From a bacterium (GTDB lineage Bacteria > Coprothermobacterota > Coprothermobacteria > Coprothermobacterales > JAADFF01): 5,081 nucleotides of DNA. Below are positions 515 through 5,081 of this stretch, one piece after another (position 1 is the stretch's first letter; every line of letters starts with the position of its first letter). The stretch lies in NCBI GenBank assembly GCA_027063755.1, contig JAMORD010000138.1, positions 1-5,081 on the forward strand. Reading direction: 5' to 3'. The notes under the pieces are model-generated. The model did not search any database and was not told where the DNA came from. It worked only from the letters and a program-made list of their open reading frames with translations. A program made the translations under genes and the position numbers.

Positions 515-542
515 AAAAAAGGGGGCATATACATGCCCCCTT
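515..542 (-). terminator. Factor-independent terminator of the minus-strand operon
   Basis: On the minus strand the sequence forms a 10-bp stem, AAGGGGGCAT pairing with ATGCCCCCTT (519-528 with 533-542), closed by a 4-base loop and followed at once by six T residues (520-515). It begins about 21 bases after the stop codon of the 689-residue membrane protein. The stem is GC-rich with no mismatch. On the plus strand the bases after the stem are TTCCACAA, so it should work mainly leftward. Confidence 0.93.
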
Positions 543-563
543 CCACAATTTAAACCATTGACA

Positions 564-2633
564 TTACATAATAATAGGTGGCAGGCCTATAACATTCCAC
601 CATGTCACCAAGAGACCACCAACGGTAAAGGCGAAGAATGCCTCCAAGAAGAACACAATAATACCCATGACAATGAGCCATACCCAAGAGGCACCACCAT
701 ACTGAGAGGTACTACTGATGATAGGTGGCAAGAACATTCTTAGCATCATCTCCATACCACCGATAATCAGAGCCAAGATAATGGTAAATATCAACACACC
801 TACCGGGTTAGGTCTGTTAGCATTACTCATCGCTATGAGGCCTCTTGTGCTCAGCACTTTTAGAGGTTTTCTGTCTGTTTCAGAAACAAGATAATAAGAC
901 TTTGTACCAAAATAAGGATTAATAAAAGATGCCATATTGACTGTGGCTCCACCACAATACATATTGTCAAACACGGCATTGAAAACCTTGTCAAAAGATG
1001 TATCAAATTTATCCATCACAGCACGACAGATATTCTGAGATGGCACGAAGTTTTCAATGAGTATTTTCTTAGTGTTCTTACCATTATCTATAACAACATA
1101 TGTTTTAAATGCCTCGGTCTGCTGCTGGGTTACAGCCTGCTCTTCAGATGCATTACACTCACAGGTATCAGATACAGTACATGTGTTCTGCTCCGTTTGG
1201 CTTGCTTCTGTGGTATTACTTATAGAAGAAACATCTTCCACACCAGCACAATTGCTTTCAATTTTAGCAAGAAGTTCCTCTTTATAGCCAGAAGACTGAC
1301 CTTCCTCAGCAGCAGCGGTATTGCCAGCATTGAAAAACACAGAAGCAGGGCAACCCTTCAGTTGCCTATCAACATATGTCTTAGTATACTCGCACTGAAC
1401 ATATGGCTTTATTTCATTCTTTGCCGTCATGCACTCTGATTGGTCAAGGGGAGCTTGTATACCATTTTTCTCTGCATACTTCTTGATGGTCTGTCTCATA
1501 AACTGGGCATAACCGTCTATACCGCCCATCTTTTCAAAAAGTTCTTTATTGTCAAGTTTAACCTGATACCATTTGGCATTTTTTATAATGTCAACAGCGG
1601 GTCCCATATTTTTGAGTGTGGATATAACCCCATCCATACCAGACAATGTAATCTCAAGCTCTTTAGGAAGAGTAGACAACATTTTTCTCATTTCCGCAAG
1701 GTTCTTATTATATTCTTCTATATATTTGTCTTTGTCTTCACCAGCAGCCATAAGATCAATATTCTGTTTAGCAGTAATAAGCTTGTCAATATAACCTTTT
1801 ACCTCATCAAGGCGTGCGGTTATATCGTCAATAACTCCTAATACTACATCTATATCTTTGAAACTTCCCCCGGTTATCGCTTCTATATCTGCTCTTACAG
1901 CATTGATATCTGTAATCATATTATCAATAGTGGCAATGGCATTCTCAAGGTCTTCTACAGAACTATTGTCTTCAAGCTTAATATTATCAAGACCTTTCAA
2001 GATATTGACTATATCTGCCTTAGCTTTCTTCTCCTTAGGTTCAAGCTGAGAGGCAACCTCACCAGATAATATCTTCACACTGTCAAGGAGAGAAGCCCTG
2101 ACATCGGCATTCTTATCTATCCATGTGCCAACCTCCTCGGCAGAAAGATCACCTATACGAGATGCAGGACACCCAGACACCTGGATTTTTGACCCTTCAA
2201 AGTGGTTGTAAACATCAACAAATGTACAGAAGTTATCTTTGCCCAACTTATCCATTAAAAACTTTTGGGCATCGGCATCTGTTTTCCAATCGGCAATAGA
2301 TCCAGACTTCAAACTATATGCCTCATTGCCCAACATATCTATCTCGTCGGCAACGGCACTCCAAGAAACAACAACAGCAGGCTTTTCTTTAAAGGGAAAG
2401 ACCTCACTGTAAAGGGGTTTGTTTTGATCTTGCATCTGTGGTCTGTCAAATATAAGGGGCCATGATCCCTTACCCCACTGCGTCAGATTACCTGCAGGAA
2501 TCACCATACCAACAGCCAAGATGATTACCACAGCCCAAACAGTGGTCTTAATTCTTCCCTCACGACGAATTGCTTTGTAGAGGGAATACCAAACATAGGC
2601 GAGAATCAATAAACTAACAATTGTCCAGCTCAC
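564..2633 (-). CDS. Large membrane protein of unknown function with Cys-bearing coiled-coil ectodomain
   Basis: A 689-residue protein I cannot assign to a family. Two N-terminal hydrophobic segments (about 4-20 and 30-47) are separated by a basic loop (K20, R23, R24, R27, K29). The positive-inside rule puts this loop in the cytoplasm and the next roughly 560 residues outside. That domain has a heptad-rich, likely coiled-coil stretch (about 195-345) and all 11 cysteines (136, 155, 401, 414, 428, 462, 485, 491, 493, 536, 560), suggesting disulfides. GCPAS occurs at 154-158 and 427-431. Two hydrophobic segments close the protein (about 610-633 and 650-676), each followed by LPPII (635-639, 684-688), the second ending one residue before the C-terminus. 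Translation starts at GTG, with GGAGGT 8 bases upstream, 2 bases after the preceding small gene. Coupling to that gene suggests that the two proteins act together. An envelope or surface role is inference. Confidence 0.9.
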   Translation of the reverse strand: MSWTIVSLLILAYVWYSLYKAIRREGRIKTTVWAVVIILAVGMVIPAGNLTQWGKGSWPLIFDRPQMQDQNKPLYSEVFPFKEKPAVVVSWSAVADEIDMLGNEAYSLKSGSIADWKTDADAQKFLMDKLGKDNFCTFVDVYNHFEGSKIQVSGCPASRIGDLSAEEVGTWIDKNADVRASLLDSVKILSGEVASQLEPKEKKAKADIVNILKGLDNIKLEDNSSVEDLENAIATIDNMITDINAVRADIEAITGGSFKDIDVVLGVIDDITARLDEVKGYIDKLITAKQNIDLMAAGEDKDKYIEEYNKNLAEMRKMLSTLPKELEITLSGMDGVISTLKNMGPAVDIIKNAKWYQVKLDNKELFEKMGGIDGYAQFMRQTIKKYAEKNGIQAPLDQSECMTAKNEIKPYVQCEYTKTYVDRQLKGCPASVFFNAGNTAAAEEGQSSGYKEELLAKIESNCAGVEDVSSISNTTEASQTEQNTCTVSDTCECNASEEQAVTQQQTEAFKTYVVIDNGKNTKKILIENFVPSQNICRAVMDKFDTSFDKVFNAVFDNMYCGGATVNMASFINPYFGTKSYYLVSETDRKPLKVLSTRGLIAMSNANRPNPVGVLIFTIILALIIGGMEMMLRMFLPPIISSTSQYGGASWVWLIVMGIIVFFLEAFFAFTVGGLLVTWWNVIGLPPIIM

Positions 2634-2635
2634 CC

Positions 2636-2806
2636 TCAGTTACCTCCCTTCACCATCTCTTCTGTTTCAATGAAATCTACTATGTCGTCTAGTCTGTTGC
2701 GAATGTCCTCGCTTAGGTAAGACAGATACTCCTGTCCAAGCACTAGGTATAGTATACCAACGAGGACAGATACAATTAGAAGGCCACTAAAAAGCTTCTT
2801 TAACAT
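2636..2806 (-). CDS. Small single-span membrane protein (56 aa), unknown function
   Basis: The protein begins MLKKLFSGLLIVSVLVG. A lysine pair (K3, K4) is followed by one hydrophobic span (about 5-23), then an acidic, helix-like tail (about 25-50) and a short GGN end. The topology is probably N-in with about 30 residues outside; there is no lipobox cysteine. The start is set by AGGAGGT 7 bases before the ATG at 2806. The frame could be extended 11 codons to a TTG at 2839, but the ribosome binding site would then lie inside the coding region. It follows the nucleotidyltransferase by 55 bases and ends 2 bases before the large membrane protein, whose ribosome binding site overlaps its last glycine codons. 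This placement suggests a partner or assembly factor for that protein. No family is recognised. Confidence 0.8.
   Translation of the reverse strand: MLKKLFSGLLIVSVLVGILYLVLGQEYLSYLSEDIRNRLDDIVDFIETEEMVKGGN
2642..2647 (-). promoter_or_regulatory. Ribosome binding site of the large membrane protein
   Basis: GGAGGT on the minus strand lies 8 bases before the GTG start at 2633. It sits inside the last Gly-Gly codons (G54, G55) of the upstream 56-residue gene, so translation of the small protein crosses the site and the two genes are likely coupled. It also supports GTG as the start. Confidence 0.8.
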
Positions 2807-2861: not shown

Positions 2862-3926
2862 CTACAGTTCAACCGATGCATCATCACCTATAAATAATTT
2901 GACTTTAGGTGCCCCTTGCATAGATATAGTGGCATTTTTCCCAACCAAACTATCCATAACACCGTGAACTCCAATAACTCTTACCTTATCAAGGAATACA
3001 CTATAAGAGATAGAGCTATTCTTAATTTCACTATCATTACCGATGCATGTGAATGGGCCAATAGAGGAATTTTCCACAACTGTCCCTGTCCCAATGATAA
3101 CAGGACCTCTTAGTTCAGAAGAGCGAACAACGGCCCCTTCCTCCACAATAACACGGCCAATAATACGGGTATCTTCTGAAACCTCGCCCTCTATCTTCTG
3201 CTCGGCATAGGCATCAAGCACGGCAAAGTTTGCCTCAAGTACTGTATCCTTCTTACCGGTATCTATCCACCAACCATCAAGTTTTATCACCTTAACCTTT
3301 TTCCCCATCTTGACGAGCTCGGCTATAGCATCGGTGATTTCATATTCACCACGCCAAGAGGGTTTGATTCTGAGAATGCTATCGTGAATAGAAGGAGAGA
3401 ACAGGTAGACACCAACAATAGCAAGGTTGGATGGCGGAACTTTTGGCTTTTCTACAAGCTCTTTGACATTACCCTCTTCATCAAGGACAACCACACCGAA
3501 GCGTGTAGGATCATCAACCTCTTTAACAAGTATAAGTGCATCGGCCTTTTCATTGTAAAAATCATTTATCATCTCAGGCAGTTTCATCTCCGTAAGATTA
3601 TCTCCAAGAAGCATAACAAAATCGTCATTACCAAGCCATGGCTGGGCTGTACGTACAGCGTGGGCCAAACCTTTAGGTTCCTTCTGAACAATGAATTCAA
3701 AGGACAAATCTCTTCCACCATACTCTTTCATAACGGCATCCCTAATGGTTTCCTTGTTATCTGGAGACACGACAATACCAATATCTTTTATGCCAGCATC
3801 TACAGCCTGATCTATAACGAAAAATAATACCGGCCTATTCATCACGGGAACCATAGGCTTTGGCATGGTATAGGTTAGTGGTCTTAAGCGTGTTCCCTTC
3901 CCTGCCGCCAAAATGAGTGCCTTCAT
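2862..3926 (-). CDS. Sugar-phosphate nucleotidyltransferase, long RmlA/StrD type (likely glucose-1-phosphate thymidylyltransferase)
   Basis: This cytoplasmic enzyme should join a nucleoside triphosphate and a sugar-1-phosphate into an NDP-sugar plus pyrophosphate, probably dTDP-glucose for envelope or surface polysaccharides. The N-terminal nucleotidyltransferase domain (1 to about 240) shows the phosphate-binding LAAGKGTRLRPLT (6-18), PKPM (22-25), EPKGLAHAV (83-91), metal-binding LGDN (107-110, D109), VEKPK (158-162), GEYEITDAI (193-201) and GWWIDTG (218-224, D222). The C-terminal part (about 250-354) has the hexapeptide-like pattern of a left-handed beta-helix. The 354-residue length and the WWIDTG motif fit the long RmlA subfamily better than the short, roughly 290-residue enzyme. 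The ATG start overlaps the upstream stop by ATGA and has GGGGGTGA 4 bases before it. No other nucleotide-sugar gene is visible, so sugar and base specificity remain open; UDP- or GDP-sugar use is possible. Confidence 0.93.
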   Translation of the reverse strand: MKALILAAGKGTRLRPLTYTMPKPMVPVMNRPVLFFVIDQAVDAGIKDIGIVVSPDNKETIRDAVMKEYGGRDLSFEFIVQKEPKGLAHAVRTAQPWLGNDDFVMLLGDNLTEMKLPEMINDFYNEKADALILVKEVDDPTRFGVVVLDEEGNVKELVEKPKVPPSNLAIVGVYLFSPSIHDSILRIKPSWRGEYEITDAIAELVKMGKKVKVIKLDGWWIDTGKKDTVLEANFAVLDAYAEQKIEGEVSEDTRIIGRVIVEEGAVVRSSELRGPVIIGTGTVVENSSIGPFTCIGNDSEIKNSSISYSVFLDKVRVIGVHGVMDSLVGKNATISMQGAPKVKLFIGDDASVEL

Positions 3927-5011
3927 ATTCTCACCCCCAAAAAAGTTTGTAAACCTTCTCTATCCATTACTTTACCAGAGAAACTTCCCATTTTACCGCC
4001 CCCACGAACATAGGCTCTCATCTGCTCCCATATATCATCAGGTCCAACAAATGTAAATCTATCTCCCCCAATTACCAAAATGGGAATATCTAAGTTCCGT
4101 GGTCTTGCCTTGGCAACAGCACTAACCATGTCAGGATCTTCAACTTTAATAACAATCATCTTACCTACATTGGTATCTGTCACCTCAGATCCTCGCCAAA
4201 TCTCTTCTACCATATAAGATATCATCTGCTTCTTTAGCCTCTTATTTTCAGACACCAGTTCATCTACATGGGCTTTCAGCCGTGTTATCTCTTTCCTATA
4301 TTCATCAATCATAGAATAGGCCCTATATCCTGCATAGAAGTAAATGCGACTACCACCTTTGTATCGTTCTATCTTTGGAAGCAAAAGCAGTGGAGCCAGC
4401 TCAGAGATATTTCTCACATGAAGGCCCCCACATGCGGAGACATCAATACCTGCTATCTCTACAATACGCACCACATCACCTTTTATCTTATCCCACTTAA
4501 GAGGTTTTCTCGTTGGTGGTAGTGTATCTCCACGATTATAATACCGTACCCTCACCTCTCTCGCCTGCGATATGGCAATGAGAGCCTCCATCTCTAAAGA
4601 AGGTAAATCAATCTTATGAGGTGGTACATCAACATCTATGCTGCTATACTCATCACCCAGATGCATTGACAGAGTTGTACCATCGGCCATATCATAAACA
4701 AGGGCAGATAGCAGATGCTGGGCTGTGTGTTGCTGCATAAAGTCATATCTGTGCATAAAGTCTATCTCCATAAAAACTTTACCCTCTATAGGTTCAGGCA
4801 ACACATGCCATATATCCCCATTTTCATCGTATACATCAAGCACTTTCTTGCCATTGATCTTGCCTCTGTCTTTGGGAAAACCACCACCTCCAGGATAAAA
4901 AATTGTGGCATCTGTAAGTACATGGTAATGCCTATCAATTTCTTTTATATCTACTACCTGTGCATCTGTCCTCACCATATACATATCTTCCCAAAATAGT
5001 CTCTTCGTCAC
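3923..5011 (-). CDS. alaX: Alanyl-tRNA editing protein, long AlaX type
   Basis: A free-standing relative of the editing half of alanyl-tRNA synthetase, expected to hydrolyse mischarged tRNA(Ala) (Ser- or Gly-tRNA) in the cytoplasm. The order is: glycine-rich editing-domain start FYPGGGGFPKDRG (38-50); zinc-site HTAQH (95-99); second half CGGLH (194-198), together giving H95, H99, C194 and H198 as metal ligands; a coiled coil (about 234-267); and a C-terminal DHHA1-like domain (about 283-360) with GGGKMGSFSGK (337-347). No aminoacylation domain is present. The length (362) fits the long AlaX class, which carries this C-terminal oligomerisation region. Two departures: F45 stands where relatives usually have Gln (GGGQ), and L197 replaces Thr of CGGTH. 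The GTG start overlaps the upstream GGDEF stop (GTGA) and has GGAGG 8 bases upstream; an internal ATG at codon 10 has a weaker site. The stop overlaps the nucleotidyltransferase start. Confidence 0.9.
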   Translation of the reverse strand: MTKRLFWEDMYMVRTDAQVVDIKEIDRHYHVLTDATIFYPGGGGFPKDRGKINGKKVLDVYDENGDIWHVLPEPIEGKVFMEIDFMHRYDFMQQHTAQHLLSALVYDMADGTTLSMHLGDEYSSIDVDVPPHKIDLPSLEMEALIAISQAREVRVRYYNRGDTLPPTRKPLKWDKIKGDVVRIVEIAGIDVSACGGLHVRNISELAPLLLLPKIERYKGGSRIYFYAGYRAYSMIDEYRKEITRLKAHVDELVSENKRLKKQMISYMVEEIWRGSEVTDTNVGKMIVIKVEDPDMVSAVAKARPRNLDIPILVIGGDRFTFVGPDDIWEQMRAYVRGGGKMGSFSGKVMDREGLQTFLGVRI

Positions 5012-5081
5012 TTGTCTTCCCTCCCCGTATAGTAGCGGTTTTTCCCCAAGTCTTTTGCCTTATAAAGCCTTTCATCGGCAA
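5008..5081 (-). CDS. C-terminal tail of a GGDEF-domain protein (partial)
   Basis: Only the last 23 codons and the TGA stop are in the window. They encode ADERLYKAKDLGKNRYY followed by TGREDK. The pattern A-D-x-x-L-Y-x-A-K-x-x-G-[RK]-N-R is the standard end of GGDEF (diguanylate cyclase) domains, so the protein probably makes c-di-GMP or is a degenerate GGDEF sensor. The GGDEF motif and any sensor domain lie outside, so activity cannot be judged. It is the first visible gene of the operon, and its stop overlaps the GTG of the AlaX gene. The tail is short after the domain, so GGDEF is the C-terminal domain. Confidence 0.88.
   Translation of the reverse strand, partial: ADERLYKAKDLGKNRYYTGREDK
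5019..5026 (-). promoter_or_regulatory. Ribosome binding site supporting the GTG start of alaX
   Basis: GGGGAGGG on the minus strand lies inside the last codons of the GGDEF gene. Its GGAGG core is 8 bases before the GTG at 5011. This makes the GTG, which overlaps the upstream stop as GTGA, a better start than the downstream ATG at codon 10. Confidence 0.8.

Follow-up and report, generated by a model that had tools for sequence, protein, structure and literature searches.

A Conserved Orphan Pair of Membrane-Protein Genes in One Genus of Dictyoglomota, a Candidate Envelope Complex

We describe two adjacent genes on the minus strand of a 5081-bp stretch of DNA (hereafter the window), which is a complete contig (C138) of a 1.5-Mb draft genome from the phylum Dictyoglomota. 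The first gene encodes a 56 amino acid protein with one membrane span, and the second a 689 amino acid protein of no recognised family. Comparison with Dictyoglomota bacterium L_MetaBat.91 (the sister species), the only other genome of the genus compared, points to a sound orphan gene pair that is evolutionarily maintained, the comparison being limited to two homologues. It is plausible that the two products form a complex.

Results

The small gene (2636..2806, minus strand) runs from an ATG at 2806 to a TGA stop at 2638-2636, and the large gene (564..2633, minus strand) from a GTG at 2633 to a stop within 566-564. They lie on the same strand and two bases (GG) apart, as had been claimed in an earlier reading of the DNA without database searches (the sequence-only reading). 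That reading had also placed the ribosome binding site of the second gene in the end of the first, and GGAGGT is indeed found within the final small-gene codons (AAG GGA GGT AAC TGA GG GTG). The junction (2634..2650, minus strand) reads AAGGGAGGTAACTGAGG, then GTG, and is identical in the sister species. Upstream of its ATG the small gene has a ribosome binding site of its own, GGAGGTGG, again with the same letters in the sister. The terminator noted after the pair is present 3' of the large gene (517..544, minus strand): a 12-bp stem with six G-C pairs, a 4-nt loop and a run of Ts, with a folding z of -1.9. The two genes are probably co-translated. Past the terminator, about 500 bases extend to the contig end (1-510); they hold no convincing gene, and neither repeats nor an Rfam match were found in them. 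The Rfam and tRNA searches gave no match.

Between the two species the small protein is 91% identical, with no indel, and the large protein 80%. By the Nei-Gojobori count, dN is 0.056 against a dS of 0.39 for the small gene, and 0.125 against 1.37 for the large gene. Because dN is well under dS in both, the two genes are, on this comparison, under purifying selection and more than chance ORFs. Gene order is unchanged in the sister, and the survey for paired genes finds the small and large genes adjacent in both homologous loci, a result that rests on two species only. None of the homologues lacks the small gene, which, with only two of them, is a weak test of the pairing.

The sister contig stops at the equivalent of residue 641 of the large protein, and the last span is known from the window only. 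All 11 cysteines, 9 tryptophans and 21 tyrosines of the aligned part are kept. The N-terminal 50 residues and residues 361-430 show the least amino acid change, and the helical stretch (161-360) and the linker (431-500) the most. Only 54 of 78 linker residues are identical to the sister, yet its four cysteines are all kept. In the DNA, the intergenic stretch before the small gene and the junction are nearly invariant between the species (0.98 identity at 2860-2801). Synonymous divergence starts low, through the small gene and the first 50 codons of the large gene, and then rises. We considered a hidden overlapping gene at the junction and rejected it: divergence climbs gradually into the large gene, and only the conserved junction is seen.

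The large protein has hydrophobic segments at about residues 3-25 (weak, KD 1.5), 30-48, 610-634 and 648-682, and a domain of approximately 560 residues sits between the two pairs. All of its 11 cysteines lie between residues 136 and 560. The domain is likely to be outside the cytoplasm, mainly because the loop between spans 1 and 2 (RREGRIK; four K/R, one E) is positive. The C-terminal hairpin adds little charge support, since its loop has hardly any charge and two K/R stand ahead of span 3 on what would be the outer side. In the layout given by the sequence-only reading, the spans at both ends and the cysteines in the middle domain thus hold good, and the outside placement is likely, with the topology not settled. 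The small protein has an N-terminal KK, one span (about 5-23) and an acidic amphipathic tail (3 K/R, 9 D/E). From this charge pattern, KK against the acidic tail, we predict an orientation with the N-terminus inside and the C-terminus outside.

The heptad-rich stretch noted earlier in the large protein is predicted to consist of four amphipathic helices folded back on each other rather than of a single rod. An AlphaFold2 model built from two sequences only has a mean pLDDT of 50 and a pTM of 0.38 over the whole large protein, and is moderately confident for residues about 91 to 350. Its best-modelled region is an antiparallel helical bundle (residues 176-352; 1578..2108, minus strand; pLDDT 54-85 by block), with helices predicted at 176-216, 226-254, 259-294 and 299-352. 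Because a structure search finds many unrelated four-helix bundles about equally similar over residues 196-340, the modelled fold carries no functional message. Among the matches are the four-helix-bundle sensor TorS (VIA Z 13.5, rmsd 2.6, 140 aligned) and the sensor domain of PcaY (VIA Z 12.4, rmsd 2.6, 130 aligned), whose scores are tied with those of de novo designs, vinculin and FAT domains, indicating a common arrangement only. Unlike these sensors, the large protein has no cytoplasmic signalling domain. The cysteine-rich region (residues 345-612; 798..1601, minus strand) includes nine of the 11 cysteines and the variable linker (431-512), and has a mean pLDDT of 44.8; modelled alone, it gave a low-confidence model and no structural match. 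The structure prediction of the large protein that had been suggested thus brought out no family, only generic bundles or insignificant matches.

The layout given by the sequence-only reading suggests disulfides. Eleven is an odd number, and therefore at least one cysteine per monomer is unpaired. Neither DsbB nor VKOR was found in seven Dictyoglomota genomes (incomplete drafts), in searches that both recover these families from control genomes. Since no DsbB or VKOR was detected, disulfides in the large protein are doubtful, though they may be formed by another route; the cysteines may instead bind metal or be free thiols.

The small and large proteins match no family in Pfam, NCBIfam, PHROGs or PADLOC, and the large protein none among PDB sequences. 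The matches seen there are weak, which bears out the earlier statement that the large protein belongs to no recognised family. Being of coil or span type, they were rejected as common helix composition; examples are the Cag19 chain 8aiw_B (E 0.0005, residues 196-309), Baculo_PEP_C, LmuB and ZorA. Genome matches with E from 5e-5 to 4e-3 (L025-L027) are to proteins of another layout and fall mainly in the helical stretch. Our Dictyoglomota sample comprises nine genomes, two of this genus and seven others. In the seven others, a two-sequence profile of the large protein (E up to 10) gave one negligible match. Beyond the sister, no homologue of the large protein was found by profile in 386 genomes (probably without Archaea), nor a further one in genome contigs, and there is no match in viral contigs, phages or plasmids. 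Weak matches of the small protein in other Dictyoglomota lie, where read, in or beside larger unrelated genes, and were rejected. Judged by these searches, the pair has so far been found in one genus.

Upstream of the pair lies a gene for an rmlA_long-type glucose-1-phosphate thymidylyltransferase (2862..3926, minus strand; TIGR01208, 420 bits against a cut-off of 320). It ends 55 bp before the small gene, occupies the same position in the sister, and its product is 95% identical to the sister copy. Overlapping it by 4 bp is a gene for an AlaX-like alanyl-tRNA editing protein (3923..5011, minus strand), which is 32 bits over the tRNA_SAD cut-off and scores 140 bits against the AlaXM model, below the cut-off of 300. 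This protein has 362 amino acids; the AlaXM model spans residues 2-225, leaving approximately 137 extra amino acids at the C-terminus, and identity to Dictyoglomus relatives is only about 30%. The window begins, in the direction of transcription, with the C-terminus of a GGDEF protein (5008..5081, minus strand), read from the sequence as ...DERLYKAKDLGKNRYYTGREDK and a stop that overlaps the alaX start by four bases. The sister orthologue (L042 4453-7944) is whole, with 1163 amino acids, near-identical last residues and a PF00990 match of 137.7 bits; the approximately 1000 residues before its GGDEF domain have no Pfam match at E 0.001. The genes for this GGDEF protein, the alanyl-tRNA editing protein and the sugar-nucleotide enzyme follow one another in a single run.

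In the sister, a contig ending in alaX has before it two ABC exporter halves, whose genes overlap each other in the same-strand run, a TPR protein and the 1163 amino acid GGDEF protein. A second contig carries rmlA, small and large genes in the order of the window, and we infer from the window that the two contigs (C70 and C63) adjoin. A probable operon would then comprise the two ABC exporter halves, the TPR, GGDEF, AlaX and RmlA proteins, and finally the small and large proteins.

Discussion

A tiny single-span gene directly before a larger inner-membrane gene is also the arrangement of OpvAB (STM2209-STM2208) in Salmonella enterica, likewise lineage-specific, where genes for a 34-40 amino acid single-span peptide and a 221 amino acid Wzz-like protein lie 1 nt apart (PMC3350482). 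A two-hybrid test suggested that OpvA and OpvB interact, and the pair is suggested to alter O-antigen length (PMC3350482). OpvAB is co-transcribed; the pair described here has a 2-base gap, one strand and a probable operon. OpvB has two spans and a Wzz-superfamily domain in its 221 amino acids, whereas the large protein has four hydrophobic segments and 11 cysteines in its 689. The likeness seen is one of layout; the large protein has no match to the Wzz family PF02706 (Pfam, up to E = 1).

Polysaccharide co-polymerases have terminal spans that flank a helical extracytoplasmic domain and a proline segment before a glycine-bearing span (PMC7809406). The large protein resembles Wzz in having spans at both termini around a helical, presumably extracytoplasmic domain. 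The prolines before its glycine-bearing span 3 (...LIIGG...) recall Wzz as well, but the motif, RPNPVG (PxP, RPNP) and in the sister KPNPTG, is slight and too short to carry weight. Wzz differs in having two single spans, against two hydrophobic segments at each end here (span 1 weak). It has an alpha/beta base with long helices and forms an oligomeric bell; the model of the large protein, at low confidence, has helices and a few strands. Co-polymerase structures are absent from its structure-match lists.

Of the specific mechanisms considered, the most probable is that the pair is a genus-restricted, co-polymerase-like scaffold complex for a surface glycan, a proposal that we hold tentatively and still consider rather unlikely. 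The small protein would pass once through the inner membrane, while two hairpin anchors of the large protein would keep its large, chiefly helical domain on the outer side; together they would form an inner-membrane complex. The large protein would be a lineage-specific scaffold of the Wzz type for surface-glycan assembly, its extracytoplasmic helical domain would organise a Wzy-type polymerase, and the small protein would modulate it, in the way that OpvA perhaps acts on OpvB. We infer topology, complex formation and glycan role alike. The glycan idea derives from the RmlA neighbour, from Wzy and a flippase without a detected Wzz, and from the OpvAB precedent. The sugar-nucleotide gene of the RmlA_long type is directly upstream of the pair in both species. 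Each of the two genomes of this genus encodes proteins that score above cut-off for Wzy_C and for the Polysacc_synt (Wzx-type) flippase, and a Wzz-domain protein over cut-off is found in neither; a sub-cut-off Wzz match in the window's genome is to the N-terminus of an apparent ABC-2-type permease and was rejected. Against a glycan role, the Wzy_C and flippase genes are on other contigs than the pair, and rmlA has no adjacent rmlBCD or glycosyltransferases in the available DNA. Other Dictyoglomota with Wzy_C and without Wzz, Dictyoglomus among them, lack the large protein, and a substitute is therefore not required in this genus. Improbable is the suggestion that the two proteins form a genus-specific inner-membrane complex, new as a family and with a novel fold of the cysteine domain, which replaces the missing Wzz-type co-polymerase or some other envelope-assembly part, its cysteines perhaps binding metal.

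The large protein could instead be a lineage-specific structural envelope protein with no link to glycan synthesis, serving in the periplasm of a diderm cell as a spacer or scaffold (between inner membrane and wall, for example); the small protein would then be a subunit or an assembly factor. This is possible, at well below an even chance, and somewhat more probable than the co-polymerase proposal because it is broader and less specific. The layout of the large protein suits it, as do the conservation of anchors and cysteines beside weak constraint on the linker and the helical part, the restriction to one genus, and the BamA/TamB/Skp-type outer membrane genes of D. turgidum (PMC5167688). However, the predicted bundle folds back and forms no long rod, and Pfam finds no wall- or outer-membrane-binding domain. 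Only two sequences, a poor model and a fast-diverging extracytoplasmic domain would fit a large protein that belongs to a known family but evolves fast and stays hidden from searches with two sequences; with nothing beyond coiled-coil-type chance matches from Pfam, NCBIfam, PHROGs, PADLOC and PDB sequences, we find this doubtful.

Two further readings turn on gene arrangement. The overlapping exporter half-genes upstream in the sister, in the same strand run, and the 4-base overlaps between the GGDEF gene and alaX and between alaX and rmlA would fit a large protein that is the extracytoplasmic partner of the exporter at the head of the operon and receives its exported substrate. Yet four unrelated genes intervene, 55 bp separate rmlA from the small gene, the large protein shows no HlyD/MacA-like adaptor signature, and the link between C70 and C63 is itself drawn from the window; such a partnership seems very unlikely. 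The small ORF, for its part, might act mainly in translation, its termination feeding initiation of the large gene, without its protein being a lasting partner. The 2-base gap, the ribosome binding site inside the small gene, the identical junction and the scarcity of synonymous changes in the small gene and at the large-gene start agree with this. But the small protein itself is constrained, as its dN, dS and identity indicate, and has a clear span and charge pattern, and we give a mainly translational role little credence.

Dictyoglomota is a little-studied, heat-loving phylum whose envelope is poorly understood. The large protein keeps eleven cysteines that are presumed to lie outside, in a phylum where DsbB and VKOR are not detected, and this raises the question of their role. 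Should the pair prove to be a true complex for envelope assembly, this thermophilic diderm phylum would have an envelope part that belongs to no family, and the two genes would exemplify how translation can link a tiny membrane protein to a large partner.
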